From the NCBI GenBank assembly GCA_012032555.1, contig JAAUSR010000012.1:1-64000 (forward strand): a stretch of 64,000 nt of DNA, given 5' to 3'. How positions within the stretch are numbered: position 1 is the stretch's first letter; every line of letters starts with the position of its first letter. This DNA comes from Thioploca sp. (GTDB taxonomy: Bacteria; Pseudomonadota; Gammaproteobacteria; Beggiatoales; Beggiatoaceae). Under the pieces are notes generated by a model. It had not been told where the DNA came from. It saw only the letters and a list, made by a program, of their open reading frames with translations, and did no database searches. The position numbers and the translations under genes are program-made. This document shows positions 9,295 to 32,727 of this stretch, piece by piece.

Positions 9295-9994
9295 ATTATT
9301 TACCTTTAACAAACAATCCAATCAAGTTATTTCTAACGGTCAACAACTCACCTGACGCATTTTAGACTTCTTTTTTTTAGGTAACTTAATTTTTTTCCTC
9401 GTAAATATCATTACCAATAAATAGAGAAACCGGAATAAGTAAAAAATAAAAAATGTAGACATCAACTGAATTTAACCAGATAGATTTGAGTGAACCAAGA
9501 TCCGTACCGGAGTCCAGATGTCGTTGCTAAGAAGGAAGACAGATTTTAAGTATATCATCATCATCCTATTTCTACAATGAAGCAAAATGAGATATTAACT
9601 ACGATTGTGGCACTAATAACCAAGTGAACCCAGAAGCGATATGATTAACTCAACTACATCAGATTTAACTTAATTCATTAGCCTATCAGACCAGTTGCAC
9701 ACGAGTCAGTTTTTTTCAGTGCTTTCTTCCCTGCGGTCTGCTGACTGAAATTAAATTAGGGATCAGCAAAAGTTCAGCGCTACTTATCAATTTTAAATGT
9801 CGGTCGGACCGGGTTCCACGTGTCCGATAATTGGCTTGTCTAAACGGGATGATGGCGAATCCTATTTCAAAATTGACCGGTAGCAAGTAATTATTACTGA
9901 TACTATAAGCTTGAAAGACAGTTTATGCTAAAATATTTAATTTATTAAGACTTAATTACTCACATAGATTAACTTGGGTTTGAGGAATTTAACA
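9295..9994. other. Long intergenic region with degraded DNA and a MITE-like repeat
   Basis: 700 bases without a convincing gene. On the minus strand about 9398-9540 an open stretch reads SIWLNSVDVYIFYFLLIPVS but has no good start and no recognised family, so it may be a gene remnant. The right part holds a 106-bp inverted-repeat element (listed separately). The hisA promoter should lie in the last 90 bases. Confidence 0.45.
9779..9884. repeat. MITE-like element, copy A
   Basis: A 106-bp unit with imperfect terminal inverted repeats, GCTACTTATCAATTTTA on the left and the complement of GCTACCGGTCAATTTTG on the right. Inside is a TCGGTCGGAC...GTCCGA dyad. The same architecture and the internal phrase CGGGATGATNGCGAAT recur at 15884-15997. 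No ORF is present, so any mobility would depend on a transposase elsewhere. Confidence 0.7.
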
Positions 9995-14117: not shown

Positions 14118-14375
14118 ATGGGTATTAGTATTTGGCAATTATTAATTGTTTTAGTCATTATCGTTTTATTATTTGGAACGAAAAAACTCCGTAATATTGG
14201 TGGTGATCTGGGCGGTGCGATTAAAAGTTTTCGACAATCAATGCGGGAAGGGGAAACAGAAGAAAATTCAACTACCCCATCATCAACGACAACCACCGAA
14301 CAAATCACTCAAATTGATAATGGTAAAGTGATTGAAGGTCAAGTGACGGGTAAACAAATTAACTCCAACAGATAA
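14118..14375 (+). CDS. tatA: TatA, twin-arginine translocase subunit
   Basis: TatA forms the protein-conducting assembly of the Tat pathway, which exports folded proteins. The 85-residue protein has the N-terminal helix [19 protein letters not shown], the hinge GTKKLR, an amphipathic helix ([17 protein letters not shown]) and a polar Thr/Glu-rich tail. Spacing from HIT (17 bases) and to tatB (13 bases) shows one operon. The FecR protein at 28021 has a Tat-type signal and is a likely client. Confidence 0.94.
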
Positions 14376-14388
14376 ATCAAAGACTACT

Positions 14389-14748
14389 ATGTTCGATATT
14401 GGTTTTTGGGAACTCTGTTTAATAGCTGTAGTAGCATTAATCGTATTTGGTCCGGAAAAGTTACCGGGAGCGGCTCGCAGTGCCGGCTTATGGATAGGTC
14501 GTGCCCGTCGTTTTATGGCGACTATCAAGCAAGAAATTGATCGCGAATTACATCTCCAAGAAGCCCGAGATGCGATCAAGCAAAGTGAGCAAAGTAGCCT
14601 TCATCAATTTCTGGAAGAAACCAAGACTGGTTTGAATGAGTTAAAGAAGCCACTGGTATCAGCTACTGATAATGAGAAAGCTAACTTAGCTGCTAATAAC
14701 TCACCACCCACTACCACCTCTACCGTTCATAAAATCGAGCCACACTAA
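14389..14748 (+). CDS. tatB: TatB, twin-arginine translocase subunit
   Basis: TatB partners TatC in binding Tat signal peptides. The 119-residue protein opens with [21 protein letters not shown], then PEKLPGAAR (TatB-type with Glu and Pro after the membrane helix), a long amphipathic helix and a variable tail. It ends three bases before tatC. Confidence 0.93.
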
Positions 14749-14751
14749 TTT

Positions 14752-15591
14752 ATGACTGAGCCAAATTCCTCTAGCGGCAAGGAAATGCCGTTTGTTCAGC
14801 ATTTATTGGAATTACGGGATCGCCTGCTAAAAATAGTATTAGCTGTTGTTGTCATTTTATTAGTGCTCATGCCTTTCACTAATCCATTATTCTCTTTCGT
14901 TGCCACTCCACTGCTTAACCTGATGTCGGAGGCTGGTTCGAAAATGATAGCCATTGATGTGGTTTCACCTTTTTTTACACCCTTCAAATTATTACTTGTC
15001 ATCTCTATTTTTCTGGCCATGCCGATAATTCTCTATCATTTATGGGCCTTTGTCGCGCCGGGGTTATATGAACATGAAAAATCTCTGATTCTTCCCCTAT
15101 TAGTTTCTAGTACCTTCCTGTTTTATTTAGGAATTCTCTTTGCGTATTTAGTGGTGTTACCACTGGTATTTGGTTTTATGATTTATACCACGCCGGTTGG
15201 GGTGGAAATGATGACCGATATCAGTCGCTATCTTGATTTTGTGTTGGCCATTTTTTTTGCTTTTGGAGTTGCTTTTCAAGTACCCGTAGCTACGGTGATT
15301 CTCGTTTGGTTAGAGATAGTTACCCCAGAGGCGTTAGTTGACAAGCGTCCTTATATCATTGTAGGTGCTTTTGTTATTGGCATGATCATGACACCACCTG
15401 ACGTTATCTCACAGACCTTATTAGCTGTTCCCATGTGGTTACTCTTTGAAGCGGGTTTATTTTTTGCGCGTATTGCCCTAATGAGAAAGAAAAAAGCGGA
15501 AACTCAGGATGGACCAAATTACCCTATCTCAAATTTAGATGAAATGGATATTAGCTTGACACGTCGCGATAAAGGAGATAATCAAAAATAA
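14752..15591 (+). CDS. tatC: TatC, twin-arginine translocase receptor
   Basis: TatC is the six-helix inner-membrane receptor for twin-arginine signal peptides. The 279-residue protein has the N-terminal family motif MPFVQHLLELRDRL with the conserved Glu, the periplasmic YHLWAFVAPGLYEHEK block, and GAFVIGMIMTPPDVISQ before the last helices. Its cytoplasmic tail (about 40 residues) is longer than in E. coli and charged. Last gene of the plus-strand operon. Confidence 0.95.
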   Translation: MTEPNSSSGKEMPFVQHLLELRDRLLKIVLAVVVILLVLMPFTNPLFSFVATPLLNLMSEAGSKMIAIDVVSPFFTPFKLLLVISIFLAMPIILYHLWAFVAPGLYEHEKSLILPLLVSSTFLFYLGILFAYLVVLPLVFGFMIYTTPVGVEMMTDISRYLDFVLAIFFAFGVAFQVPVATVILVWLEIVTPEALVDKRPYIIVGAFVIGMIMTPPDVISQTLLAVPMWLLFEAGLFFARIALMRKKKAETQDGPNYPISNLDEMDISLTRRDKGDNQK

Positions 15592-17307: not shown

Positions 17308-20300
17308 TTAGTGTTCTATTTTACTCGCTAAATAGGGTTTCACTAATCTACTAATTTTCTCGTCCTCAAATTCTTGTGCGAGTCGAATAATCCGAGTTGT
17401 TAATGGTGCTAAACGTTCATCTTGTTGCCGTAATTGCTTAGCTTGTTCAATAATGCCATTAATATCTCCAATTTGCGTTAATTCAAATAGCTGAGCGGCT
17501 GCCTTGCTAGGTAAAACGATTGAAGAGAATAAAGCTTCATCTTCATCACCAGTCACCATCAGATCCTGACGAGATACAGGTTCGTAAACCCATTCTAGCG
17601 GCAAATAGTGTTGTAAATAGTCGAATAATATCTCAGCACGAATAGGCTTGGCGATAAATTCATTACAACCATTGGTTAAACTTTCTTCTTTATATTGATT
17701 AAAAACACTAGCTGAGGTAGCAATGACAACCATTTCTTTATATTGAGGAATTTTTCTTAATTGTTGAATAAATTCAAAACCATTCATCACCGGCATAATT
17801 AAATCCAGTATAATTAGATCGGGTGACTCAGTCTGTACTTTATCCAAGCCCGCTTGACCATGATGTGCTTCGATGACCTCAAAACCAAGTGGTGTTAATA
17901 AATTAACTATCACTAAACGGTTTTCGAGTTGGTCATCCACTACTAAAATTTTATAACTTTTGGTTAGTTCAGCTTGACAACGATAACCGGTAATTATGGC
18001 TTGGCCTTCAATTGATTCGGTGGCTTCTCTGTCAACTACCGCCGGTAATGCTAATTCGATTTTAAACAAACTGCCTTGACCTAAAACACTTTCGACTTGT
18101 AGTTCGCCATCCATCAGTTCAACTAATTTTTTGGTAATAGCTAATCCTAACCCGGTACCTTGAATTCGATAACTGATATCACTAACTTGTTGAAACGGTA
18201 AGAATATTTTATCAATTTCTGGGGTAGCAATGCCAATCCCGCTATCTTTGACTTGAAAACATACCTTATTTTTATCATAGCTGACTTGAAGTTTCACCTG
18301 ACCTTGATGCGTAAATTTAATAGCATTACCTAATAAATTTAGCAGAATTTGGCGTAAACGTTTGTCATCCGCATGTATAGCCATCGGCAGCGACGATAAG
18401 GGTTCATAAGTAAAAGTAATTCCCTTTTGTTGAGCACGAACTGCGAATGTTTCAGTAATCGTTTGAATAAATTGTATAAAGTTAAAATCGACTGGATAAA
18501 GTTCAAGTTTCTCCGCTTCAATTTTGGATAAATCTAAAATATCGTTAATCAGGGTCAATAAATACTGACCACTGCGTTCAATAATATTAATCCCTTGTTT
18601 ATGTTTATCACTTAAAGTCCGATCGCGATTGAGAATTTGAGTGTATCCTAAAATCCCGTTGAGAGGAGTACGTAATTCATGACTCATATTAGCTAAAAAA
18701 GTACTTTTAGCTCGATTAGCTGATTCTGCTGCTTCTTTAGCTTGTTGTAATTGAATACTCGCTCGTTTTTGCTCAGTAATATCACGAGTCACTGTGGCTA
18801 AACAAAGGGGGATCCCCGTATGTGGATGCCTAACAATAAACACATTACTTTGAGTTTCAATGAGTTGACCCGTTTGAAAATGACGTAATTGGACTTCACC
18901 TTCCCAATGTTCTTGTTGCAATACTTTGGGAAACACCGCTTGCTGCCACAATGGTCTTAAGGATTTATCTATATAATCAGTTAGTTGGGTTTCTTCTAAT
19001 CGGCGTTGATTTTGTTCTAAACCGACTAATCGACGCCCGGCTTTATTTAAGTATAAAACTTGTCCTTCTAAGGTTGATATACCAATAACATCATTACTAT
19101 TTTCGACCAGCGCCGTAAATTTTTGTTGTTCTTCCAGTAGTTTTTCTTTCTCTTGTAATTCCTGAGTGCGTTGCGCTACTGTGATTTCTAAAGCTTCTTT
19201 ACTGTGACGTAAAGCCTGCTCCATTTGCTTACGCTCACTAATATTGCGCATAATAGCGACAAAGCATTTAACTTGTCCGGGAATCTGGATATATTGTAAA
19301 AAAACTTCTATCGGTATTTTAGTCCCATTTTTATACTGTAAGGCGGTTTCAAAAGTGGTGGTGGGTTGTTGTACCGGGTGTTGTACCGGGTTACGTAAGG
19401 AATTCACCATGGTTTCAAAACGTTCCGTTGCTAATTCAATGCGTAAATCCAGCAGTGTTTTCTGTAGTAATTCTTCAGCCGGATAGCCAAACTGTTGGAT
19501 AGCACCTTGATTAACATACAGAAACCGATAAGTTTCGCTATCAAACATAAAGATACTATCGAGAGTAATATCTAGTATCGTTTTGAACCGAGCCAATTCA
19601 CGATAAGCCGTTTGTAATTTAGCTTTGGCTTGTTTTTGATCGGTAATGTCTTCTACATTACACCAAATCAAATGCTGACCTTTTCTGCTTACCAACAAAC
19701 CGGATAATTTGACTGGAACTAAGTAGTTTTGTTTATGAATATATTCCTTTTCGATTGGACCAAACCGACCAGTGGTTTTGAGCAAATGCAATTGGTTTTT
19801 TTCTAGACTGAAGTACTTTTTAGGGGTAATGTCCCAAATAGTTAATTGATATAATTCTTCTAATGGATAGCCAATGATCTGAGCATAAGCGGGATTAGCT
19901 TCAATAATTTTGCCGTGGATATCCACTAACAGGAGACCAATGAGTGCTTCTTTAATCAAATTTCGCCAATAGACTTCGCTGTCACGCAAGGCTTCTTCTG
20001 CCTGCTTTTGTGCGGTTAAATCCATGTGGGTACCAATAAAACGATAAGGTATACCCTGTTTATTCCATACAGCGATACCGCGACTTAATATCCAGATAAA
20101 ATGTCCAGCTTTATGTTGTAGCCGAAATTGGACTTCATAAGTGGGGATTTTTTGGCTGAGATAAGCTTCTATTTGAGATAAAACTAAAGAAAAATCATCC
20201 GGATGAATTCGGGTAATGAGTTCTTCAAAACAGTTGCTAATTTCTAACGCCTCGAAGCCAATCATTTGCTTCCAACGGTGCGAAAAATAAACGTTATCTG

Positions 20301-23300
20301 TATCAATATTCCAATCCCATAAACCATCATGGCTCCCTTGCATAGCTAAGTCAAAACGTTCTTCACTTTGACGTAAAGCTGCCTCAACTTGTTTACGTTC
20401 AGTGATATCCACCATAATACCAACTAGTGCTTCTAACTGCTCGGCTTGATCGTAAATGGTTGTGACAGAAACATTTACCCAAAATGACTCGCCATGGTTT
20501 TTCAATAACCTTTGTTCAACCTGATAGCTTTTTATTTCTTTATTAATCAGTTGTTTATAATAATTCTGATGATATTTGATGTCATCCAGGTGAATTAAAC
20601 TGAAATAACTTAACGAACCGATAGCGGCTGGGGTATAACCGGTCATTTCTAACCATTTAGCATTACATTGAATGATTTGCCCTTTCAGATTAATGAGGAC
20701 AATCCCGGTAGCGGCATTATCAAAAATGGCTTTTAATCGCGCTTCTCTTTCCCGGAGTCTGTTTTCAGTTTGTTTGCGTTCAGTCATGTCAGTCGCAACG
20801 GATAAGCGGACTAAATGACCATCATCCCACGGAATAGCACGATCCTGGACATAAAACCACTTGTTCAAGCGCTTATTGTGATATTCCCAGGTATACACAT
20901 CGCTTAGTTGTCCCGTGGTTGTTAGGAGTTGCGAATTGGTACAAAAATCACAAGGCGCTTGTTGTCCAGCCTGCAAGGTTTGCCAACAAATTGTACCGAT
21001 TAAATCTTGATTAAATAGTTTTTGAATAGAGCGATTGACAAATAAAACTTCGTTGGTTTGCATATCACTCACATAAACGGCTGAATTCAAGCTATCTAGG
21101 ACAATTTTAAAGCGTTCATGAGCTTGTTTTAAAGCATCTTCTGCTTGCTTACGTGCTGTAATATCTTCAACTGTGCCTAACAGACCAACCACCTTACCAT
21201 TGTCACCATATAAAGGAACTTTGTTGACTTCTCCCCAAAATAAATACCCATCAGGATAGAGTACTTGCTCAATGGCATGATAAATGGGGGTATTAGTTTC
21301 GATGACCTGTCGATCCTGATATTGAAAATGTTCGGCATAATCTCGCCAGATTAAATCAAAGTCGGTTTTACCGATGATGTCATCGGTGCTATTGAGATGA
21401 GTAAATTGTGCAACACGTTGGTTACAGCCTAGAAATACGAGATTAATATCTTTCCAGAAGATCAGTTGTGGAATATTATCTAAGACTAAACGTAAGAAAG
21501 TATCTTGTTTGCGTAAGGCTTTAGTTCTTTCAGCCACTTCTCGTTCTAAGGTTTGATTGTATTCCCGTAACACTAATTCAATTCGACGACGTTCAGTAAT
21601 ATCTTCACTAGTACCTAAAATGCCAATAACGGTCCCTTGAGCATCATGTAAAGGAATTTTATTGGTTTCAAACCAACGTGATTGACCATCAGACCAGGTG
21701 ACTTCTTCCAAATGATGGTATAACGCTCGATTGGTGCTTATTACATAGTTATCATTTTCATGAAGCCATCGCGCTAAAGGCTCACGGAGTAATTCAAACT
21801 CGGTTTTACCAATGATTTCAACTGGATTGTTGATTTGAATCAGATGAGCAAAACGTCGGTTACATCCCAAAAATACGGAATAAACATTTTTCCAAAATAC
21901 ATATTGAGGAATATTGTCAATCAGTAAGCGTAAAAATTCTTCTTGTTCACGCAATTTTTCTTCAGCGTGCTTACGTTCAGTAATATCTTGAATAAGTACG
22001 ACAAAATAGTCGACTTCTCCTTGAGTTGAACGAACACAACGTAATGACAAGGTAGCATGAACAATGTTACCATTTTTGTGGATATAGCGCTTATCTTTGG
22101 AATAGCCTTCTATCTGACGAGCCAGTAAGCGATTAAATTGTTTTAAATCAAAGGCGAGATCGTCTGGATGAGTGAGATCAGACCAGGATTTTTGCTTGAG
22201 TTCTTTTCGACTATAGCCCAATATTTCACACAGTTTATCGTTAACATCCAACCATCCCAACGTTGGTGAAGTAATCGCCATGCCAATTAGCGGCAATTCA
22301 AAAAAGTGGTTGATTCTTTCCTGACTGTTACGTAAATCGGCTTCTGCCTGTTTTTGAGCCGTGATATCAGTGCGCGTACCAATAAATCGAGTCGGTTTAC
22401 CTTCTTTATTCCATACCGCAATGCCGCGGTCTAAAATCCAAACATAATGTCCATCTTTGTGGCGTAATCGTTGAGTGTTTTCATAGGTTGGTTTCTTCCT
22501 ATCCAGATAAGCTTCGATGTCTCCTATTGCACGAGTTAAATCATCCGGATGAATTCGCTTACTCCATTCATCAAAATGATTGACTAATTCCTGATCTTGA
22601 TAACCCAGCATACTTTTCCAACGGGGTGATAAGTACAATTCATTGGTTTCTAAATTCCAATCCCATAAACCATCATTAGCTCCCCGCATAGCTAATTCAA
22701 ATCGTTCCTCGCTTGCCCGTAACGCTTTTTCAAGTTGTTTATGCTGCGTAATATCAATTCCCATTTTTAAAACCAAGACACTACCATCGTTATCGACAAA
22801 GGGATATTCATAAATTTGATAGGTCCGATTATTAGCCAATAACTGTTCCCAAACTTTGGAAAGTAAAGCTTTTTCAAATAGGTCAGCTTTCGCTAATTCT
22901 TCACCGACTTGTTGTGCTGGTGCGTTTAACTGTTGTTCAAAATCAGTGAGGATGGGTTGAATCTTTTCATAGAAATAGCGGTTAGCAAATTGAATAGTCT
23001 GATCACCGGTATATAAGCAGATGAAAGCCGGTAAATTATCTAAAATCGTATTGAAATGTTGGGTGCTCGCGTGTAAAGTTTGTTCTGCTTGTTGACGTTC
23101 TTGAATTTTTTGCTGTAATAACGTATTTTTTTCTGCTAATTCTTGAGTTCTTTCCGAAACCTGCTGTTCTAAAGTCAGATTGTATTCGATTAAGCTTTCT
23201 TCTGCTTGTTGCAGTGCATTTTCTGCACATCGACGTTGTACAATTTCAATTTGCAGTTGCCGAGTTTGTTGAGTCGTGGTGTAGAAGTAACGACTCATCA

Positions 23301-24261
23301 ACAGCGTGATAGCTAAGCCGCCAATGAGGAAACTAAAAGACAACCAATTCTGAGTAAGTAGCGGATAATTGCCTTTAAAAAAAATGGTTACTAACCAAAC
23401 TCGCCCAGCGAATTCAAATCTTTCTTGGTAAACTGGTGGTGTTTTTACTGAATGACTATCTGCATATAACAGCCGATCATTAGCTGGTGCTAATTCATCT
23501 TCAATCTGTAAATTAAAATGACCGTGATGAGGAGATTTTTCTAATACTTGTTGTACCAGGTACTTGAGTCGAAGAACCGTAACTAAGAAACCACGTAAAT
23601 ATTTTTGTTGTGCTTCCCCAGTATTGATAGCGATTTTCTTTTGATAAATGGGGTAAAACAATAAGATGGTATCTTGATCAACTGAATTATCAACAATCCA
23701 TTTGACCCGCGGAGTGGCTTGTAGATTCTCTTTCTCTTGGGCTTGAGATAAGGTTTGTGCAAACAAGTAATTGGATTGCAAATCAAAACCATAAATACGT
23801 TCAATGGGATTTAAAGAAGTGGCATAATAAATAGGAAAATACTCATTACGAAGTGAAGCCGTTATAAATTCTTCTTGCGAGGAATGTTCAGTAAAGCGAA
23901 ATTGAGGATAATCTGCCTGAGCCAAATTTTCATAATGGCTGCGTTGGTTATGTGGGACTCGAGGCGCCCAAATGAGCGTGAACAGGTAAGGATGACGCAA
24001 TAAGATAGGGGTAGTAACACTATTAAATTGTTGTCGGCTAAGATTATCCGGGTTAATCGCGTAGAAATTAGCCAGTGTGTATAACATTTCGACCATCGTT
24101 TGGAGAGAACTCTGCAATGACCAAATAGGATTTGGTGCTAATTTATTCATTTCAAAAGAGATCTCTTGCTGCTCTAAATGGCGAACAGCCATAAATCCGG
24201 TGATAGAGAGAATACTACCTAGCACCAACAATAGGACAGTCATTTTATGTTGATATTGCAT
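17308..24261 (-). CDS. Giant hybrid sensor kinase: CHASE, 11 PAS, HisKA, HATPase, REC
   Basis: A 2317-residue inner-membrane sensor. TM1 lies near residues 8-26, a CHASE-type periplasmic domain near 45-290, TM2 near 306-325, then a coiled coil. By my reading eleven PAS domains follow, starting near 404, 519, 645, 773, 918, 1047, 1168, 1298, 1427, 1553 and 1710. Many are followed by PAC motifs (DITERK or DITAQK). The HisKA His is in NMSHELRTPLNG (about 1858); HATPase boxes are LLNLLGNAIKF and GTGLGLAITKKL; the receiver is ILVVDDQLENR with Asp in IILDLIMPVM. A helical tail of about 85 residues ends it. PAS 2 and 8 (GLWDWN) and PAS 4 and 5 (IDNIPQ...FWK) are duplicates. PAS 6 carries CWQTLQAGQQAPCDFC, so it might bind metal or sense redox (inference). 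Cotranscribed with the hybrid kinase downstream. Confidence 0.93.
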   Translation of the reverse strand: MQYQHKMTVLLLVLGSILSITGFMAVRHLEQQEISFEMNKLAPNPIWSLQSSLQTMVEMLYTLANFYAINPDNLSRQQFNSVTTPILLRHPYLFTLIWAPRVPHNQRSHYENLAQADYPQFRFTEHSSQEEFITASLRNEYFPIYYATSLNPIERIYGFDLQSNYLFAQTLSQAQEKENLQATPRVKWIVDNSVDQDTILLFYPIYQKKIAINTGEAQQKYLRGFLVTVLRLKYLVQQVLEKSPHHGHFNLQIEDELAPANDRLLYADSHSVKTPPVYQERFEFAGRVWLVTIFFKGNYPLLTQNWLSFSFLIGGLAITLLMSRYFYTTTQQTRQLQIEIVQRRCAENALQQAEESLIEYNLTLEQQVSERTQELAEKNTLLQQKIQERQQAEQTLHASTQHFNTILDNLPAFICLYTGDQTIQFANRYFYEKIQPILTDFEQQLNAPAQQVGEELAKADLFEKALLSKVWEQLLANNRTYQIYEYPFVDNDGSVLVLKMGIDITQHKQLEKALRASEERFELAMRGANDGLWDWNLETNELYLSPRWKSMLGYQDQELVNHFDEWSKRIHPDDLTRAIGDIEAYLDRKKPTYENTQRLRHKDGHYVWILDRGIAVWNKEGKPTRFIGTRTDITAQKQAEADLRNSQERINHFFELPLIGMAITSPTLGWLDVNDKLCEILGYSRKELKQKSWSDLTHPDDLAFDLKQFNRLLARQIEGYSKDKRYIHKNGNIVHATLSLRCVRSTQGEVDYFVVLIQDITERKHAEEKLREQEEFLRLLIDNIPQYVFWKNVYSVFLGCNRRFAHLIQINNPVEIIGKTEFELLREPLARWLHENDNYVISTNRALYHHLEEVTWSDGQSRWFETNKIPLHDAQGTVIGILGTSEDITERRRIELVLREYNQTLEREVAERTKALRKQDTFLRLVLDNIPQLIFWKDINLVFLGCNQRVAQFTHLNSTDDIIGKTDFDLIWRDYAEHFQYQDRQVIETNTPIYHAIEQVLYPDGYLFWGEVNKVPLYGDNGKVVGLLGTVEDITARKQAEDALKQAHERFKIVLDSLNSAVYVSDMQTNEVLFVNRSIQKLFNQDLIGTICWQTLQAGQQAPCDFCTNSQLLTTTGQLSDVYTWEYHNKRLNKWFYVQDRAIPWDDGHLVRLSVATDMTERKQTENRLREREARLKAIFDNAATGIVLINLKGQIIQCNAKWLEMTGYTPAAIGSLSYFSLIHLDDIKYHQNYYKQLINKEIKSYQVEQRLLKNHGESFWVNVSVTTIYDQAEQLEALVGIMVDITERKQVEAALRQSEERFDLAMQGSHDGLWDWNIDTDNVYFSHRWKQMIGFEALEISNCFEELITRIHPDDFSLVLSQIEAYLSQKIPTYEVQFRLQHKAGHFIWILSRGIAVWNKQGIPYRFIGTHMDLTAQKQAEEALRDSEVYWRNLIKEALIGLLLVDIHGKIIEANPAYAQIIGYPLEELYQLTIWDITPKKYFSLEKNQLHLLKTTGRFGPIEKEYIHKQNYLVPVKLSGLLVSRKGQHLIWCNVEDITDQKQAKAKLQTAYRELARFKTILDITLDSIFMFDSETYRFLYVNQGAIQQFGYPAEELLQKTLLDLRIELATERFETMVNSLRNPVQHPVQQPTTTFETALQYKNGTKIPIEVFLQYIQIPGQVKCFVAIMRNISERKQMEQALRHSKEALEITVAQRTQELQEKEKLLEEQQKFTALVENSNDVIGISTLEGQVLYLNKAGRRLVGLEQNQRRLEETQLTDYIDKSLRPLWQQAVFPKVLQQEHWEGEVQLRHFQTGQLIETQSNVFIVRHPHTGIPLCLATVTRDITEQKRASIQLQQAKEAAESANRAKSTFLANMSHELRTPLNGILGYTQILNRDRTLSDKHKQGINIIERSGQYLLTLINDILDLSKIEAEKLELYPVDFNFIQFIQTITETFAVRAQQKGITFTYEPLSSLPMAIHADDKRLRQILLNLLGNAIKFTHQGQVKLQVSYDKNKVCFQVKDSGIGIATPEIDKIFLPFQQVSDISYRIQGTGLGLAITKKLVELMDGELQVESVLGQGSLFKIELALPAVVDREATESIEGQAIITGYRCQAELTKSYKILVVDDQLENRLVIVNLLTPLGFEVIEAHHGQAGLDKVQTESPDLIILDLIMPVMNGFEFIQQLRKIPQYKEMVVIATSASVFNQYKEESLTNGCNEFIAKPIRAEILFDYLQHYLPLEWVYEPVSRQDLMVTGDEDEALFSSIVLPSKAAAQLFELTQIGDINGIIEQAKQLRQQDERLAPLTTRIIRLAQEFEDEKISRLVKPYLASKIEH

Positions 24262-24440: not shown

Positions 24441-25655
24441 CTATAAACGGGCTTCAATTTTTTTCAATACCGCTGCAGCGCTTGATAATCCAGCTTCTCG
24501 GCATTGCTGTAAAGGCAACACGACAGCTTGGTCAACGCGAAATAGATAACCACTATGATCCAGTCCTGGTGTTCCTACTGGGATAAAAATATCAGGTGGT
24601 CGAGAACCTTCCGGTAATTGATTGGCTAAAACAATAGTGGGTATATCATAATCCGGTAATTGAGTATGAGCAAAACTCGAAATCCATACCAGAGTATCGG
24701 CTTCTTTCGTGCTTAATAAACGCTGACTGGAAAATTGCCAGGGATTATATTCTGGAAAATGACGTGAAAAATTAATCCGAAGTGGAAACCCAGTTTGCCA
24801 AACACAGACTTGTCGAGCTGTAACCCCATCTTCTAAAGGTAAAGCGGCAAAACGAGTTATTTTATTAAAGGCTTTCACCAGTTCACATAGCGCTTGGACA
24901 ACTAAATCAATATGTCCGGTATTAAGACTTTCAGTATGCCAGATAATAACACCATAATTAATTTGTTGCATCCGCTTAACCAAAGCGGCTAGTTCTGATA
25001 TCGAAACTTCTCCTACTTGTTGTGCTTGTAAGGGGACATCAACAAGTAAAGCTTTTAACATCGCAATAAATTCTGGTAAAAGATGTTCCGCTAGAGGAAT
25101 CGTCGTCGCATGAGGAATATGAGAAGCTTCACCAATAACAATGATTTCCGGCTGAGCAGACGGTTGGTTAAATAAGGTTTCGGTACGTTGCAAACAGCGA
25201 TTTATCAACCGTGGAAAATGGGTTTCTACTTGAGCACCGATTAAAATAATTAAATCGGCTCGGTTCCGTATTTCTGTTAAAGTGGTGGTAATACAACCAC
25301 TACTTTGCAATGCCAAAACCGAGGCGCAAGGTGTCGTAATTTGGTCAATCACGCCACCGGTTCGTTTAGCCAGAGAAATTACTGCTCGTACCCCATCCAC
25401 ATCGGTATCTAAACTGGCGTACACTGGTAGGTGTGCACCACGCAGTAATTGAGCTGCTTCCCCAATCGCCTCATCCTGACTGACGGTTCTATTAGAAACA
25501 CGTGCTAATGGAGAAAGGGGTGGCTTAGCAAAACAAGTCGATGCCTTCTCACAACCCTGTGTTTGTACATATAATCTGCCATTGATCTCACTTCCATTTA
25601 AATCCTCACAAAGCAATGAACAAAAAGGACAAGTAATGGTCAGGTTAGATTGCAT
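24441..25655 (-). CDS. fhcB: Formylmethanofuran dehydrogenase subunit B homologue
   Basis: A 404-residue protein resembling FmdB/FwdB and the bacterial FhcB, part of the formyltransferase/hydrolase complex that releases formate from formyl-(tetrahydro)methanopterin in C1 oxidation. The N terminus has the Fe-S type Cys motif CPFCSLLCEDL with a later TQGC, then a molybdopterin-oxidoreductase-like fold (LIILIGAQVETHFPR, FIPVGTPGLDHSGYLFRVD near the end). Bacterial FhcB is often considered non-catalytic. No fhcA, C or D lies in this window, so its role rests on genes elsewhere. Flanked by unrelated operons and about 270 AT-rich bases upstream. Confidence 0.8.
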   Translation of the reverse strand: MQSNLTITCPFCSLLCEDLNGSEINGRLYVQTQGCEKASTCFAKPPLSPLARVSNRTVSQDEAIGEAAQLLRGAHLPVYASLDTDVDGVRAVISLAKRTGGVIDQITTPCASVLALQSSGCITTTLTEIRNRADLIILIGAQVETHFPRLINRCLQRTETLFNQPSAQPEIIVIGEASHIPHATTIPLAEHLLPEFIAMLKALLVDVPLQAQQVGEVSISELAALVKRMQQINYGVIIWHTESLNTGHIDLVVQALCELVKAFNKITRFAALPLEDGVTARQVCVWQTGFPLRINFSRHFPEYNPWQFSSQRLLSTKEADTLVWISSFAHTQLPDYDIPTIVLANQLPEGSRPPDIFIPVGTPGLDHSGYLFRVDQAVVLPLQQCREAGLSSAAAVLKKIEARL

Positions 25656-25924
25656 TCTAAGTATCTCTAAAATAATCTCAAGTATTAATTGGAACTCATA
25701 TTAAATACCCACTTTATTGAGATTAATGGTAGTAAGCATGAAAAAAAAGCATAATCTATATTAAGCGCAATAGATTTAGATTTTAATTGAACTCAATAAA
25801 GTAGAAATAAATAGTTACTATACATAAACTATTTATAATCATAAACTTAATTGTATTAAAATTGGAATATAACCACATTTTTACAATGAGTCTTAGAGTG
25901 GATTAATATTGAGTGTTTGAAAAG

Positions 25925-26956
25925 TTACCCTCGTCGTGTATCTATAGCCTCCCGCAAAGCTTCTCCAATAAAAATCAATAATATCAATGTACCCACTAAT
26001 ACCACAAAAGTAGTCATAGACAGCCACCAAGCGGTAATATTGGCTTTACCTTGAGCCAGTAACTCACCTAAACTCGGATAAGCCGGTGGAAGTCCTAAAC
26101 CTAGAAAATCCAAACTCGTTAAGGCTAAAATTGAACCACTGATCCGAAAAGGTAAAAAGGTAACGACCGGCGTCATGGCATTGGGAAGGAGATGACGCCA
26201 CATGATAGTAGAATTAGGCACACCTAACGCCTGAGCGGCTTTAACATAATCCAAGTTACGCCCGCGTAAGAACTCCGCCCGAATGTAATCGGCTAACCCC
26301 ATCCAACCAAATAAAGATAATAAAATAACCAGTAATGACACACTGGGTTCAAAAATAGAAGCAAAAATAATTAATAAATATAATTCCGGCATACTGCCCC
26401 AGACTTCAATAAATCTTTGAAAAAACAGATCGATACGTCCACCAAAATACCCTTGAATGGCACCAGCAATAATGCCAATTATGGTACCAATTACTGTTAA
26501 AACCAATCCAAATACCACAGATAAGCGAAAACCATAAATGAGTCTTGCCAATACATCTCGTCCTCGGTCATCCGTGCCCAGTAAATTTTCTGAAGAAGGT
26601 GCGGCGGGATTTGGTTTGGCATTATCGTAATTAATGGTGTTGTAAGAATACGGATTAGGCGGAAACCATACCCAGTTAGCTGGATTAGCTGTTAATAATT
26701 GTTGAACATAAACATCTTTATAATTCGCTTCCGTATCGAAATCGCCACCAAAAGTCGTTTCCGAATAAACCGTGAGTAAAGGAAAATAATAATGACCTTC
26801 AAAGTAAATGACTAAGGGTTTATCATTGCTCAATACTTCCGCAAATAAACTGAGAATAAATAAAATACTAAATAGCCATAAACTATAATAACCACGTCGG
26901 TTCTTTTGAAAACGTTGCCAGCGGCGTTGAGACGGAGTTAAAACCGATAGAGTCAT
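25925..26956 (-). CDS. yejE: ABC transporter permease, YejE-like
   Basis: Inner-membrane permease of a peptide-type ABC importer, 343 residues. N-terminal membrane anchor with a long periplasmic loop containing SYNTINYDNAKPNP, typical of YejE and absent in DppC; then the GTDDRGRDVLARLIYG block and the EAA-type loop YVKAAQALGVPNSTIMWRHL. In E. coli the Yej system imports peptides such as microcin C. It overlaps the yejB homologue by 4 bases. The ATPase gene yejF, normally next, is missing. Confidence 0.9.
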   Translation of the reverse strand: MTLSVLTPSQRRWQRFQKNRRGYYSLWLFSILFILSLFAEVLSNDKPLVIYFEGHYYFPLLTVYSETTFGGDFDTEANYKDVYVQQLLTANPANWVWFPPNPYSYNTINYDNAKPNPAAPSSENLLGTDDRGRDVLARLIYGFRLSVVFGLVLTVIGTIIGIIAGAIQGYFGGRIDLFFQRFIEVWGSMPELYLLIIFASIFEPSVSLLVILLSLFGWMGLADYIRAEFLRGRNLDYVKAAQALGVPNSTIMWRHLLPNAMTPVVTFLPFRISGSILALTSLDFLGLGLPPAYPSLGELLAQGKANITAWWLSMTTFVVLVGTLILLIFIGEALREAIDTRRG

Positions 26957-28005
26957 TGATTAACTGAATCAAATTGAATGCGTGGATCAATTAGAACATA
27001 ACTGATATCCGTTAACAATTTAGCGATCAAGCCCAGCAAGGTAAATATGTAAAGTGTTCCTAACACCACCGGATAATCGCGTTTTAAAATCGATTCATAG
27101 GAAAGTAATCCCAAACCATCTAAAGAAAAAATGGTTTCAATTAATAAACTACCCGTGAAAAAAGCACCAATAAAAGCACCCGGAAAACCCGTGACCAGCG
27201 GAATAATCGCATTACGAAAAACGTGTTTATAAAGTACCGCATTTTCAGTTAGCCCCTTAGCACGGGCGGCTAAGACATATTGTTTCCGAATTTCTTCCAG
27301 AAAACTATTTTTAGTTAACAAAGTCATGGTAGCAAAACTACCAATCATCAGAGAGATAATCGGCAAAACCAGGTGCCATAGATAATCAAGAATTCGGTCA
27401 ACCCAACCGAGTTCGTTCCAATTATCCGAGACTAAACCCCGCAATGGAAAAATATCCCAAAAACTACCGCCACCAAACAGCACTAATAAGGTTAAGCCTA
27501 ACATAAATCCGGGAATAGCATAACCCACTAAAATTAAGGTACTCGTCACCACATCAAAAGCGCTACCTTCACGCACGGCTTTAGCAATCCCTAAAGGAAT
27601 ACAAGTTAAATAAGTTAGAAAGAAAGTCCATAATCCTAAACTAATCGAAACGGGCAGTTTAGAAAGAACTAAATCCAATACCGATTGGTGATGAAAATAA
27701 CTCTCACCAAAATCCAAAGTCAAATATTTTGCCATCATCGTCATAAATCGTTTATAAGCGGGTTGATCAAAACCGTAGAACCTTTTAATTTCCTTGAGCC
27801 GTTCTTCATCTAAACCAGTGGCACCACGGTACAACCCTTGGAGACCCGTTGCCACTTCACCCGTTTGATGCCGGTGTTTTAATTCATTAATTAATTGTTC
27901 AACCGGTCCACCTGGCACAAATTGAGTGACTATAAAAGTAATTAACATCACCCCAAATAAAGTGGGGATCATTAAAAGAAGACGTTTAATGACGTAGGCT
28001 GTCAT
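26953..28005 (-). CDS. yejB: ABC transporter permease, YejB-like
   Basis: The second permease, 350 residues, DppB/OppB family. It starts MTAYVIKRLLLMIPTLFGVM and has the insertion around GEVATGLQGLYRGATGLDEE characteristic of YejB, then six membrane segments and the EAA loop YVLAARAKGLTENAVLYKHV. The C terminus reads SYVLIDPRIQFD. It lies 15 bases after the FecR gene and overlaps yejE. Confidence 0.9.
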   Translation of the reverse strand: MTAYVIKRLLLMIPTLFGVMLITFIVTQFVPGGPVEQLINELKHRHQTGEVATGLQGLYRGATGLDEERLKEIKRFYGFDQPAYKRFMTMMAKYLTLDFGESYFHHQSVLDLVLSKLPVSISLGLWTFFLTYLTCIPLGIAKAVREGSAFDVVTSTLILVGYAIPGFMLGLTLLVLFGGGSFWDIFPLRGLVSDNWNELGWVDRILDYLWHLVLPIISLMIGSFATMTLLTKNSFLEEIRKQYVLAARAKGLTENAVLYKHVFRNAIIPLVTGFPGAFIGAFFTGSLLIETIFSLDGLGLLSYESILKRDYPVVLGTLYIFTLLGLIAKLLTDISYVLIDPRIQFDSVNQ

Positions 28006-28020
28006 ATTAATTCAGGGCGA

Positions 28021-28671
28021 TTATTTAAAATAGTTAGGTGGTTTACGTCCGACTAAAGATTCCAAATAGAACAATTCCTGGTCTTGATGTTCTTTCAGGG
28101 TATCAGTCGAAATCTGCGGATCATCTAGGTTATGAGTAATAAAATAAGCTTGATGATGATTTGAACTGACCGATTGAACCCGTTGGTTACCTCGCAAAGT
28201 GATTTCAGTATGACCATAACAAGTACAAAAATAAGTCCCTTTGGGATTCACTTGAATAAATATTCCGGTGCCACGGATACCAATAGCGGCGGTTGGTGGT
28301 TGAATAACCCGGTTACCCTTGCCAAAGACACTCATCAGTGTGCCGTTCAATAATCGCATCGTACTAACCAAAGAACTCTCTTCATCACCGCGTAGCCGTA
28401 ATGTGGATCGTGATCCCAATCGGTAAACATCTTCACCGATAACAAAAATGATTCGACCATTTTCTCCGGTTTTGACGGTATCACCGGGTTTGATCAGCGT
28501 GGTTGAAGTAGCGGTGATATTATTGACCCAAACTTTTCCTTTCACTTCACGGATAATATTGGCATAACTTACCCCCGGTATCAAACCCAATAAACCGGCT
28601 GCTGTCGATAAAGTTAAAAAAACCCGGCGAGTTAAATTGAATTGTTGGTATTCTTTATCTGGGTTGCTCAT
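28021..28671 (-). CDS. FecR-domain protein with Tat-type signal
   Basis: A 216-residue periplasmic protein. The N terminus NLTRRVFLTLSTAAGLLG is a twin-arginine signal (TRRVFL followed by a weakly hydrophobic stretch ending SYA). The FecR domain follows: KGKVWVNN, LIKPGDTVKTGENGRIIFVI, VYRLGSRSTLRLRG, IGIRGTGIFIQVNP, then TYFCTCYGHTEI, a Cys-containing motif seen in non-TonB FecR proteins of proteobacteria. It overlaps the binding-protein gene by 17 bases and precedes yejB, so it is fully embedded in the Yej operon. Its function there is unknown; unlike true FecR it lacks a membrane anchor and sigma-factor partner nearby. Confidence 0.85.
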   Translation of the reverse strand: MSNPDKEYQQFNLTRRVFLTLSTAAGLLGLIPGVSYANIIREVKGKVWVNNITATSTTLIKPGDTVKTGENGRIIFVIGEDVYRLGSRSTLRLRGDEESSLVSTMRLLNGTLMSVFGKGNRVIQPPTAAIGIRGTGIFIQVNPKGTYFCTCYGHTEITLRGNQRVQSVSSNHHQAYFITHNLDDPQISTDTLKEHQDQELFYLESLVGRKPPNYFK

Positions 28672-30466
28672 TTTTTTGCCACCATGTTCTCATTACCCAG
28701 TCTTCTGCTTGATAATATAAAGGTTGTTTAGCGGGTCGACCAAATTTATTCCAATAAGCTATTCGATGACGTCCCGTGTACCAATTCGGGATAACATATT
28801 CACCGGCTAACATCACTCGATCGAGAGCATGTACTGCGGTGACTAGGGCGTGGCGATCCGGGGCATAAATCACTTTGTCAATGAGTGCATCTATCAAGGG
28901 ATTTTTTAAACCAATCAAGTTATTACTACCCTCTTGATCGGCAGAAGAAGAATGCCACATGTTCCGCAATTCATTGCCAGGTGATTGTGATTGCCCAAAA
29001 ATCGTCACGACTAAATCAAAATCAAAAGTATCTTGCCGTCGTTGGTATAAAGCCACATCAACAGTTCGATAATTTAGTTTAATGCCTAACTTGGCTAAAT
29101 TACGCGCAAAAGGCGCTAAAATGCGTTCAAATCCTTTTTGTGCTAACAATGCTTCAAATTCTAACTTAATTCCAGCTTTATTTTGTAATACGTCATTTTG
29201 CAACTGCCAACCGGCTTCAGTCAGTAATTTTTGAGCTTGGCGCAGATTGGCGCGTAACGAATGCGGTGGTTTGGTACTTACCGGTTGCCAAACTTGAGTT
29301 AAAATCGTTTGCGGAAATTGTTCAGGAAATTGTTCACTAAGCGGTTTAAGTAATGCCAACTCGGCTTCACTCGGTAACCCTCGAGCAGCGAGATCACTAT
29401 TGCTGAAATAACTATCGCACCGCTCATATTGATCAAAAAATAAATTTTGGTTAGCCCACTCAAAATCAAAAGCCAGATTAATAGCTTGGCGTACCCGAAT
29501 ATCTTGGAAAATCGGACGACGCAGATTGAAAACAAAACCTTGCATTCCCGCATTATTACTATGCGGTAATTCGGTTTTTTTGATCTCGCCGGAATCAAAT
29601 TTTGGACCGACATAATCTCGTGCCCAAGCTTTGGATTCATAAACAGCCATAAAGTCAAATTCGCCTGATTTCAAGGCTTCTAGAGAAACTTCTCGATCTT
29701 GATAATATTTGAAAGTAATCCGATCAAAATTGTGCATACCTCGACGGGTATTTAAATCTTTAGCCCAGTAATTAGGATTTCGTTTATAAGTGATGTATTT
29801 TCCCATTTGATACTGATCGATGATATAAGTACCACTCGCTAGCAGTGGTTGAGTGACAATGGTGTCAAAAGCTTTACCAGCCACACTGGCTTGCGCAAAA
29901 ACGGGAATTTCGGCTGCAATCAAATGCAGTTCCGGATTTTTTTTAGCGAACCGAAATCGGATACTGCGGTTATCGATAATCTCAGCGGCTTGAATATCGT
30001 TCCAATAAATTCGATATTGGGGGTGAGCTTGCTCACTTTTAAGGGTATCAAACGAAAATTTAACATCGGCAGCCGTCACCGGCGAACCATCAGCAAAACG
30101 CGCCTGCGGATTAAGACGAAAGGTGACTGATAATTCGTCCTGGGCTAACTCAATATCTTCAGCCAATAACCCATACAAGCTAAAAGGTTCATCTTGGCTT
30201 TTTTCCATCAACGTCTCAAATACTAAAGACAGTCCGGTTGCAGCAATACCTTTAAGTAAATACGGATTGAAACTATCAAAATTACCAAATCCAGATAAGA
30301 TTAATTCACCACCTTTAGGCGCATCCGGATTAACATAATTAAAATGTTTAAACCCAGGTTTATAGGCGGGTGTATAACCCAAAGCCGCAGAAGGCGCCGC
30401 TGATACTTCAATCGCTAAACTGCCAATAAAGAGTAAACACCCCGCCAGGAAAGTTAATCTTTCCAT
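28655..30466 (-). CDS. yejA: Peptide-binding protein of ABC importer, YejA-like
   Basis: A 603-residue periplasmic solute-binding protein of family 5. Sec signal peptide 1-23 (ending EVSAAPS). The SBP family 5 pattern is clear: FKHFNYVNPDAPKGGEL, DVKFSFDTLKS, the binding-lobe block TFKYYQDREVSLEALKSGEFD, VRQAINLAFDFEWANQ and WQLQNDVLQNKAG. The length and the FDFEWANQNLFF motif match YejA rather than OppA. It supplies substrate to the YejB/YejE permeases downstream. First gene of the operon. Confidence 0.92.
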   Translation of the reverse strand: MERLTFLAGCLLFIGSLAIEVSAAPSAALGYTPAYKPGFKHFNYVNPDAPKGGELILSGFGNFDSFNPYLLKGIAATGLSLVFETLMEKSQDEPFSLYGLLAEDIELAQDELSVTFRLNPQARFADGSPVTAADVKFSFDTLKSEQAHPQYRIYWNDIQAAEIIDNRSIRFRFAKKNPELHLIAAEIPVFAQASVAGKAFDTIVTQPLLASGTYIIDQYQMGKYITYKRNPNYWAKDLNTRRGMHNFDRITFKYYQDREVSLEALKSGEFDFMAVYESKAWARDYVGPKFDSGEIKKTELPHSNNAGMQGFVFNLRRPIFQDIRVRQAINLAFDFEWANQNLFFDQYERCDSYFSNSDLAARGLPSEAELALLKPLSEQFPEQFPQTILTQVWQPVSTKPPHSLRANLRQAQKLLTEAGWQLQNDVLQNKAGIKLEFEALLAQKGFERILAPFARNLAKLGIKLNYRTVDVALYQRRQDTFDFDLVVTIFGQSQSPGNELRNMWHSSSADQEGSNNLIGLKNPLIDALIDKVIYAPDRHALVTAVHALDRVMLAGEYVIPNWYTGRHRIAYWNKFGRPAKQPLYYQAEDWVMRTWWQKNEQPR

Positions 30467-30491
30467 AAAAACCCCTTAGTTATAAAAACAG

Positions 30492-30812
30492 TTAAAATTG
30501 ATTAGTGAAATTAGTACTTTTAACTTTTCCTTTAAAAAATATAACGTTGGCTTTAGCATCTTCGGTATTCCAAATCATATTAGTACCAGAAAGTTTATCT
30601 AAACCAAATAGAGAACCAATTCCGGTGTCCACATTAACACTAGTTACTTTGGTCGGTTCTCCTAAAATACCAATCACTTCTTCTTCCGTCATACCGGCTT
30701 TAACTCTATTAAAATTAGTATAAGTTAAACGAGGAGTCGTTGCACAACCACTGAGCAGTACAACTATCATGATGAACCCTATTACGGATTGTTTACTGAA
30801 ATTAATTGACAT
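30492..30812 (-). CDS. Small lipoprotein, BamE/SmpA-like fold
   Basis: A 106-residue protein with a lipoprotein signal ending in LLSGC (Cys 23). The mature part has VKAGMTEEEVIGILGEPTKV, the signature of SmpA/BamE-like and DUF3862 lipoproteins, followed by predicted strands (NMIWNTEDAKANVIFFKGKV). BamE itself belongs to the outer-membrane assembly machine, but this is a short divergent member and its role is unknown. It is read toward yejA with a 25-base gap. Confidence 0.75.
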   Translation of the reverse strand: MSINFSKQSVIGFIMIVVLLSGCATTPRLTYTNFNRVKAGMTEEEVIGILGEPTKVTSVNVDTGIGSLFGLDKLSGTNMIWNTEDAKANVIFFKGKVKSTNFTNQF

Positions 30813-31138
30813 AGGTGTTCCTCAAAGGTATCAGAGCCACAGAAAGATGACACTTTATTTATCTTGCTTTAAAGTAAACTACTGTGTCAACTTATTTAGA
30901 TAACTATATGAATTAATTTTAGTATTAAATAATAAAAATAGCTAAACAAATTAACCGGAGTTGAATTCAGTAAACCACTTTAAAGGAAGTCAGACATGCG
31001 GAGCAATGTCCGACCGACATTTGAAATTGAATAGCCGCTATGAAACATCATGTACCTTGACTTCTGAAAGTCGATGCATTATGGTTATCGCTAGCGTACC
31101 TACCCTTGCTTGCTCTGCGTTAACTTTAGGAGGTAATA
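30813..31138. other. Intergenic region with a repeat remnant
   Basis: No gene. AT-rich divergent promoter region on the left. On the right, about 30989-31035, is a remnant of the MITE family: GTCCGACCGACATTTGAAAT is close to the reverse complement of the left half of copy A (9779-9884). Confidence 0.5.
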
Positions 31139-31452
31139 ATGAAAACCACAACCGTCGTGGTTACCAAAGGGCTAGCTCCAGGAAGCCTATTTAAATTAAT
31201 TTTTGTTGGACTGACTTTTAGTTTAGGTTTTATCATTATTTTATGGGGATACTTAGTTTATTTGGTATTTCAGTTATCACCATTAATGAAGAAGTCAAAA
31301 CTGGAATCACCGGATTGCTCTATTCACTTGTGCTGGCACCGGTTTTTACCACACTGTTGTCATTGGTAGTTTGGCTGTACATTTTATTAGGAATTTGGAT
31401 TTATACTCGTTTTCGGTCTCTGACTATTCGTTACCAACCGATTGATGAATAA
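31139..31452 (+). pseudogene. Small two-TM membrane protein, frameshifted
   Basis: A strong Shine-Dalgarno (TTAGGAGGTAATA) precedes ATG 31139. The first frame gives a hydrophobic helix (LFKLIFVGLTFSLGFIIILW), then breaks in the GGGG run at about 31244-31247. Adding one G restores WGILSLFGISVITINEEV and a second helix (VFTTLLSLVVWLYILLGIW) to the stop at 31452. The joined product is about 104 residues with two membrane segments and a basic, cytoplasmic-looking end. I do not recognise a named family. Intact in all but one base, so likely a real gene with an undercall. Confidence 0.65.
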
Positions 31453-31575
31453 CAAGCAAAATATCAAGTCCGAGCTTCATTCAGGCATTCAGGCATTCAA
31501 AGCAATTTATGCTAACTAGCGAGTAATCATAAACTGCTTCAGTAAGACCATTCGCTGGTTTAACCCGAGGAGAAA

Positions 31576-32727
31576 ATGATGTTAAAAAAATGGAACCGCT
31601 TAATAGTGGCAATTTTATTTGTCAGTTATTTATCTACTGGAACAGCTGAAACTCCGTCGACTCAATTTCCCGGTTTACCCCCAAACTTCCAACCCATTAA
31701 AGTGACTGTTTTAGCCTTTAAAATTTTTCCAGGTAGTTTTTGGGATCTGGTCACGCAATTTATGGCAGCGGCTGCGGAAGATTTAAATATGAACCTGGAG
31801 GTTTTAGATGCCAAAGGATATCGTAAACAAATGCTAAACCAAGCTCAAGCGGTGGTAAAGCGTAAAAATCCGCCAGATTATCTAGTTATAGCCAATGTTA
31901 AAGATATTGCTGAAAAAATGATTCAGGCGGCTGATCAAGCGGGTGTTAAAGTATTTCTCATGAATACGGGATTTGATGCCGAGGAACAGAAGCAATTAGG
32001 TAATCCTCGTCAAAAATATCGATACTGGATTGGACAATTCCTTCCAGATGACTATTTAGCCGGATATCAAGCCGCTAAAATGCTAATCGAACAGGCCTTA
32101 CGGTCTGGTGTTACCGCCAATGATGGTAAAGTTCATTTAATGGCTATAGCCGGTGATAGAACTACCCTCGCTTCCACTCAACGACTTGCCGGATTAAAAC
32201 AAGCACTTGCTGAATATTCCAAAGTGGTTATTCACGAAATCACCATTTATGCCCACTGGGAACATGACAAAGCGCAACGCCGAATCTTATTTGATCTAAC
32301 CCAAGATCATCATCCCAACCTCAATGCAATTTGGGCAGCTAATGATTCCATGGCACTTGGTGCCATCGACGCGGTGGTTGCCAATCACCAAATTCCGGGT
32401 AAAGATATTTTCATAACTGGTATGGATTGGATGCCACCTGCACTTCAGGCAGTTAAAGCCGGTACCTTATTAGCTACACTGGGAGGTCATTTTATGGATG
32501 GTGGTTGGGTAATGGTATTGCTTCATGATTATCATTACGGGAAAGATTTCATTCAAGAAACAACCTCGTTTAAGTCACAATTGTTTGCGCTTAACGCTAG
32601 CAATATTGATAATTATCTCAATCGCTTTGGTCAACAAAATTGGCAAAAAATTAATTTTAGGCAATTTTCTAAAATTTATAGTCCTTTAGTTAAATATAAT
32701 TTCAGTGTAGAAAGTGTGATTCAATAG
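31576..32727 (+). CDS. Periplasmic sugar-type substrate-binding protein
   Basis: A 383-residue protein with a signal peptide (1-25) and a Peripla_BP_4/LacI-type two-lobe fold: KVTVLAFKIFPGSFWDLVTQ, DYLVIANVKDIAEKMIQAA, KVFLMNTGFD, GKVHLMAIAGDRTTLASTQR, AIWAANDSMALGAIDAVV and FITGMDWMPPALQAVKAGT. These bind sugars or autoinducer-like ligands. No permease or ATPase gene is adjacent, so it may feed a distant transporter or a sensor kinase. GAGGAG precedes ATG 31576 (ATG 31579 is equally possible). Confidence 0.85.
   Translation: MMLKKWNRLIVAILFVSYLSTGTAETPSTQFPGLPPNFQPIKVTVLAFKIFPGSFWDLVTQFMAAAAEDLNMNLEVLDAKGYRKQMLNQAQAVVKRKNPPDYLVIANVKDIAEKMIQAADQAGVKVFLMNTGFDAEEQKQLGNPRQKYRYWIGQFLPDDYLAGYQAAKMLIEQALRSGVTANDGKVHLMAIAGDRTTLASTQRLAGLKQALAEYSKVVIHEITIYAHWEHDKAQRRILFDLTQDHHPNLNAIWAANDSMALGAIDAVVANHQIPGKDIFITGMDWMPPALQAVKAGTLLATLGGHFMDGGWVMVLLHDYHYGKDFIQETTSFKSQLFALNASNIDNYLNRFGQQNWQKINFRQFSKIYSPLVKYNFSVESVIQ

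Follow-up and report, generated by a model that had tools for sequence, protein, structure and literature searches.

A gene from a widespread family of Tat-signal FecR-fold proteins within a yej peptide-transporter operon of Thioploca

The gene unit and its ATPase

The DNA analysed here, referred to below as the window, is the 64,000-nucleotide stretch at positions 1 to 64,000 of contig JAAUSR010000012.1 from Thioploca sp. (GenBank assembly GCA_012032555.1). It contains a peptide-transporter operon of the yej type in which a gene for a FecR-like protein, termed fecR below, stands between yejA and yejB. The protein was found to belong to a widespread family of FecR-fold proteins bearing a twin-arginine translocation (Tat) signal and a CxC motif; no description of such a CxC FecR-fold family was found in titles or the opening parts of abstracts, and another name or an uncovered paper is possible. 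The original prediction had joined yejA, fecR, yejB and yejE in a single unit, and its gene coordinates and main statements were correct for all four genes. The unit, as now read, consists of the following genes.

30492-30812, minus strand: small lipoprotein gene that opens the unit, BamE/OsmE-like (each of the two models scoring below its cut-off)
28655-30466, minus strand: yejA, YejA-type substrate-binding protein of 603 aa (SBP_bac_5, 227.4 bits)
28021-28671, minus strand: fecR-like gene, FecR-fold protein of 216 aa (Pfam FecR, 17.8 bits, and predicted fold)
26953-28005, minus strand: yejB, permease of 350 aa (PRK15133, 458.8 bits, above the cut-off of 445)
25925-26956, minus strand: yejE-type permease of 343 aa (best model PRK15021, 412.1 bits, below the cut-off of 439)

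On the minus strand the order is thus lipoprotein, yejA, fecR, yejB, yejE. The lipoprotein gene is separated from yejA by 25 bp and fecR from yejB by 15 bp, while yejA overlaps fecR by 17 bp and yejB overlaps yejE by 4 bp. The view of these genes as one conserved unit was borne out by the overlapping or nearly touching genes and by the order kept in relatives, and a single transcript running from the lipoprotein gene to yejE is likely on this arrangement. A promoter scan was uninformative (20 matches against a shuffle mean of 18.4), and terminator-like elements numbered 9 against 4.4 in shuffles.

The same five-gene order was found in G001, a congener of the window genome represented by a single contig, with proteins 87-95% identical, and in G011, a second genus, with proteins 51-80% identical. 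The original prediction had allowed for a misassembly. This was ruled out because the order recurs in both genomes; it is therefore neither unique to the assembly nor a breakpoint artefact.

When compared with the YejABEF microcin C/peptide importer, the unit has yejA, yejB and yejE in common and in order, but it carries fecR between yejA and yejB, begins with the lipoprotein gene and contains no yejF. The ATPase had been proposed to be encoded outside the operon, and a full-length YejF-like gene of 539 aa was indeed located elsewhere in the window's genome (G000:C20:35282-36898, the same as L027:8283-9902), unlinked to the yej unit. Its best NCBIfam model was YejF at 707.9 bits, below the equivalog cut-off of 834. 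All four components of YejABEF are accordingly present in the genome, YejE and YejF scoring below their cut-offs, and a loss of yejF was rejected. The separation of yejF is real, for the single contig of G001 carries it at 4.73 Mb, far from yejA at 1.64 Mb. A YejF-like protein is carried by 36 of the 42 genomes of the window's family, including some without a yejB match, and its pairing with this permease can therefore only be inferred. The lone ATPase would energise the YejBE permease and may energise other permeases.

The FecR-fold protein and its family

The FecR-like protein has a twin-arginine signal (R15-R16 in the motif TRRVFLT, then a hydrophobic stretch), a beta-rich domain at about residues 39-190 and a C-terminal helix at residues 197-205. 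Signal cleavage near residue 37 was read rather than predicted. The residues of the candidate site are C149-T-C151-Y-G153 (CTCYG), H173 and H195, with C149 and C151 two residues apart on one predicted beta-strand. The Pfam FecR score is below the gathering score of 24, and the assignment was later backed by the fold. An AlphaFold2 model from 75 aligned family members (length and redundancy filtering had left 76 rows, of which all but that of L113 were used) had a mean predicted local distance difference test score of 90.8. Its best match among solved structures was 6ovk, the periplasmic signalling domain of PupR (CCSSD), with a Z score of 15.0 and a root-mean-square deviation of 3.2 over 134 aligned residues (model residues 61-202). 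The next matches were to the anti-sigma factor BDI_1681 (4m0n, Z 14.0; 4m0h, Z 13.6). Further rows had Z scores of 5.5 or less, and Foldseek/VIA rows below the anti-sigma factors were taken as background. A sequence search of solved structures gave nothing meaningful (best E 0.39).

The role in which FecR-fold domains are chiefly known is that of the periplasmic part in sigma-factor signalling. A cytoplasmic sigma-binding N-terminal domain and a transmembrane segment were not found in the window protein; the approximately 38 residues before the first strand at 39 were read as a twin-arginine signal. Because the predicted fold best matches anti-sigma factors and because so few residues precede the beta domain, the window protein was assigned on its model as a FecR-fold domain that lacks the sigma-binding and membrane portions present in FecR and PupR. 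It thus has the predicted beta domain in common with the anti-sigma regulators FecR and PupR (6ovk, PF04773) but differs from them in lacking the sigma-binding region and in having an N-terminal Tat-type signal, an invariant CxC motif and H173.

A search with the single protein gave relatives in 9 of 57 near genomes, and one with the alignment at E 1e-6 gave them in 45 of 369 class genomes, the weakest of the latter probably being generic FecR-domain matches. With the CxC pattern required, relatives were found at 152 places in genome_contigs, and the family of the L124 genome, described below, has them in 44 of 74 genomes. Beta- and gammaproteobacteria account for most of the records listed, with single metagenome-assembled genomes (MAGs) labelled otherwise. 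A viral origin found no support: none of nine pattern matches in IMG/VR was confirmed as a relative, and there was no PHROG match.

The residues G110, R133, Y147, C149, C151, G153 and H173 were invariant in 108 distinct aligned rows. These rows are open reading frames (ORFs) hit by the A1 model with E 1e-12 as threshold, 14 of the 122 hits having been dropped as identical to a kept row over residues 41-200. Both cysteines and both histidines were kept in all 24 of these rows that a hidden Markov model had found without the cysteine pattern, the model itself having been built from rows with CxC. Exactly two cysteines follow ORF residue 35 in 79 of the 108 rows, and since no third cysteine is available there, C149 and C151 must act together in those rows. 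A FecR gene of Collimonas, which may or may not belong to the present family, is reported as up-regulated on biotite in PMC12542777.

The genes for the export system are located in the same window, about 12 kb from the unit.

14118-15591, plus strand: tatA-tatB-tatC (Pfam match for tatC; the other two genes assigned only from their position and by reading)

The window copy therefore combines a twin-arginine motif and hydrophobic stretch with a host Tat system, and R16 is kept in 106 and R15 in 90 of the 108 aligned rows. Export of the FecR-fold protein by Tat is considered likely from these features. Such export is not new in itself for a FecR domain: E. coli FecR is reported to depend on Tat for its crossing (Passmore et al. 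2020, as cited in PMC10924467; also a sentence in PMC11533796), and an anammox TatC is described as bearing a FecR domain in a passage of PMC2881027.

Genomic contexts of relatives and linkage to Yej

The best 80 of the 152 relatives were kept for a locus survey, which together with G001 gave 81 loci with flanks of up to 8 kb. ORFs were obtained by a simple script, with fecR placed by tblastn in the 8 of 88 loci where the script had chosen another ORF, and many of the surveyed loci are truncated by contig ends. Two further samples had flanks of 1.5 kb: 29 best-match loci of the class sample, in several of which fecR was unlabelled by the ORF script, and 30 loci of the L124 genome's family.

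The most frequent neighbours were an outer-membrane barrel or autotransporter-type protein or a CxxCH lipoprotein, found near fecR in 39 of the 81 loci (34 and 25 loci, respectively, with both in 20). A barrel-type protein was found in 9 loci of the class sample and a lipoprotein in one other. The corresponding counts for the L124-family sample were 6 and 4, the other 20 loci having no named partners within 1.5 kb. This surface-type context would be expected if the protein were a generic periplasmic beta-domain for adhesion or as an envelope scaffold, its Cys and His residues serving structure only and the gene kept in the operon by drift. The reported Tat export of E. coli FecR, for which no cofactor is named in the citing passages, fits the same explanation. 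It is opposed by the invariance of CxC and H173 across very divergent rows. Furthermore, a disulfide that joins residues i and i+2 is strained, and most rows offer no third cysteine as another partner. On balance a purely structural role was judged somewhat unlikely while retaining appreciable weight.

The surface-type cluster is recurrent (L026:9615-16974, L075, L077, L124 and others) and consists of a CxxCH lipoprotein, which in several cases has a PKD domain, next to a beta-barrel to which Ig/cadherin and autotransporter domains are often fused, the FecR-CxC gene adjoining. It is possibly a redox surface system. The CxxCH lipoprotein family (alignment A3) was also considered as a partner acting in trans; it gave no match in the 42 genomes of the window's family, a negative that carries no weight as the search had no positive control.

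Less frequent neighbours in the 81 loci were MsrB (8), MsrA (6), DsbD/thioredoxin-like proteins (5), extracytoplasmic function (ECF) sigma factors (7), NrsF (6) and yej genes (3). In L078, L082, L084 and L092, FecR is followed by MsrB, a DsbD-like protein and MsrA, while the ECF sigma and NrsF genes diverge from it. In L131 FecR is preceded by MsrA and followed by MsrB and DsbD, an ECF sigma gene stands at the contig end, and all parts except NrsF are thus present. From their gene content these clusters look like a periplasmic oxidant-repair regulon. L100 (4177-8672) contains a divergent ECF-NrsF pair, a BufA-like precursor, BufB, HvfC-like and HvfX/DoxX-like genes and, last, FecR, which overlaps the DoxX-like gene by 4 bp. 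BufB (MNIO) was supported by 361.1 bits (cut-off 310), the HvfC-like and HvfX/DoxX-like proteins were below cut-off, and the BufA-like precursor was assigned by reading, with no NCBIfam match. FecR is also the last gene of a bufferin-type operon in L083, behind ECF-NrsF and the three clusters that this locus shares with L100.

Bufferins are copper-chelating peptides, and genes for a sigma factor and NrsF belong to Buf1 clusters, according to PMC12452194. Relative to the bufferin and SigF-NrsF metal-stress operons outlined there and in PMC3511200, members of the present family end such an operon (L100) or adjoin sigma-NrsF with MsrA/MsrB, whereas the window copy is without such neighbours. The word FecR does not occur in the main text of either paper.

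The sigma genes near seven relatives, together with the fold match to the PupR signalling domain, would be consistent with a FecR-type signal transducer acting on an ECF sigma factor in trans. The twin-arginine signal and CTCYG motif of the window protein were found as the original prediction had described them, and no sigma-70 or TonB-receptor match was obtained among the seven proteins scanned (24441-32727), the rest of the window not having been scanned for a sigma gene. The role of signal transducer that the prediction had associated with FecR proteins was unsupported, as the protein of 216 aa carries a signal peptide where the cytoplasmic region would be expected and has no room for a sigma-binding N-terminal domain. 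Moreover, an NrsF anti-sigma gene is also present in 6 of the 7 sigma loci, the seventh, L131, being cut at the end of the sigma gene. The probability of this role was judged to be very low.

Linkage to Yej could instead indicate a functional accessory of the importer, for example a periplasmic helper protecting, delivering or sensing (metallo)peptides taken up by YejA-YejBE. The overlapping or closely spaced genes are conserved in G000, G001 and G011. Apart from these three, the only genome of the window's family in which yejA was seen no more than 1.5 kb from yejB is G017, where the pair stands without fecR. A second adjacency was found in L124, a betaproteobacterium-like MAG in which fecR lies 20 bp after a complete yejABEF. 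L124 (CAMDRT010000007.1) and L115 are MAGs labelled Bordetella parapertussis; they look environmental, and the label is probably wrong.

Against such a role, yej genes were found beside only 3 of the 81 loci, none of the 29 loci of the class sample and 1 of the 30 loci of the L124-genome family, that one being in the L124 genome itself. Among the near genomes, yejA is present in 25 of 57, compared with the 9 that have fecR. Both genes are present but unlinked in G006, G009 and G016 of the window's family, and outside that family yejA-yejB occurs without fecR in G041, G042 and G049. Four Parabeggiatoa loci (L056-L059) have the lipoprotein gene and fecR together and contain nothing that matches yej genes at 1e-3, the L057 contig ending 364 bp past fecR. 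Two of these loci belong to G018 and G032, in which there was no yejA match at 1e-40. In the same two genomes and their congeners G404 and G405 no yejB was found at 1e-60, only permeases 29-34% identical (31-33% at best in G018 and G032), such as G000 also has. These genomes are 80-91% complete, so a gene may have been missed in any one of them. A dedicated Yej component was therefore unsupported: fecR is within the unit in three genomes yet is kept where no Yej orthologues were found. An accessory function was deemed unlikely.

In the tree the Parabeggiatoa copies are placed among the yej-linked ones. G011 groups with them (support 80/74), and the whole group has support of 97/92. The lipoprotein gene adjoins yejA or fecR in several relatives, and lipoprotein-yejA without fecR was found in G007 and G024. 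The tree fits an ancestral order lipoprotein-yejA-fecR from which yejA was later lost, and two separate insertions are a possible alternative.

A candidate metal or redox site

The explanation that we tentatively prefer, at slightly below an even chance, is that the product of fecR is an independent periplasmic metal or redox protein, exported by Tat, which shares the yej operon in one lineage. It would be a stand-alone FecR-fold protein exported in the folded state, in which C149 and C151 together with H173 and H195 may form a metal-binding or redox-active site, as their conservation suggests. Its function would be in handling metal or oxidative stress in the periplasm, with no need of the Yej transporter. 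In one lineage of the Beggiatoa/Thiomargarita type, the position of fecR between yejA and yejBE would then lead to co-expression with peptide import.

Several data weigh against this explanation. The Msr contexts (5 of 81 loci) and bufferin contexts (1-2 of 81) lie in distant branches, and most loci have neither. H195 is kept in 108 of 108 rows in one alignment but in 9 of 10 and at least 90% in two others, and position 15 is not Arg in 18 of the 108 rows. The Cys2His2 site of C149, C151, H173 and H195 is a candidate put forward on residue conservation. In addition, since E. coli FecR is itself reported to be Tat dependent, a Tat signal is by itself no pointer to a cofactor. This precedent lowered our estimate for an independent metal or redox protein from an even chance to just under one, and the estimate for a purely structural domain was raised by a similarly small step.

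A broader proposal is that the CxC/His/His FecR proteins constitute an unrecognised class of Tat-exported periplasmic sensors or chaperones for metal, perhaps copper, and that the yej-linked members work together with peptide import as a functional unit that imports or monitors peptides loaded with metal and delivered through YejA. This was considered very unlikely.

The occurrence of a widespread, soluble, Tat-signal version of the FecR domain with an invariant CxC and conserved His, located in copper-chelator or Msr clusters in some genomes, suggests that the fold was recruited as a periplasmic metal or redox module. The CxC and His residues provide a candidate site that is open to direct testing. 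As regards the yej operon, the results are mostly a caution against assigning fecR a role in transport on gene order alone, and the interest lies more in the FecR-CxC family than in its insertion into this operon.

Three other genes of the window were noted. An HtpX-like protease ORF (8530-9321) seems to have an unrelated tail starting after the RADAGSA region, possibly due to a frameshift. The gene at 24441-25655, downstream of yejE, encodes a protein resembling subunit B of formylmethanofuran dehydrogenase (247 bits, short of the cut-off of 328); such a gene is present at this position in G001 and not in G011. Also downstream of the unit, at 17308-24261, is the gene for a multi-PAS hybrid histidine kinase of 2317 aa, which is likewise downstream in G001.

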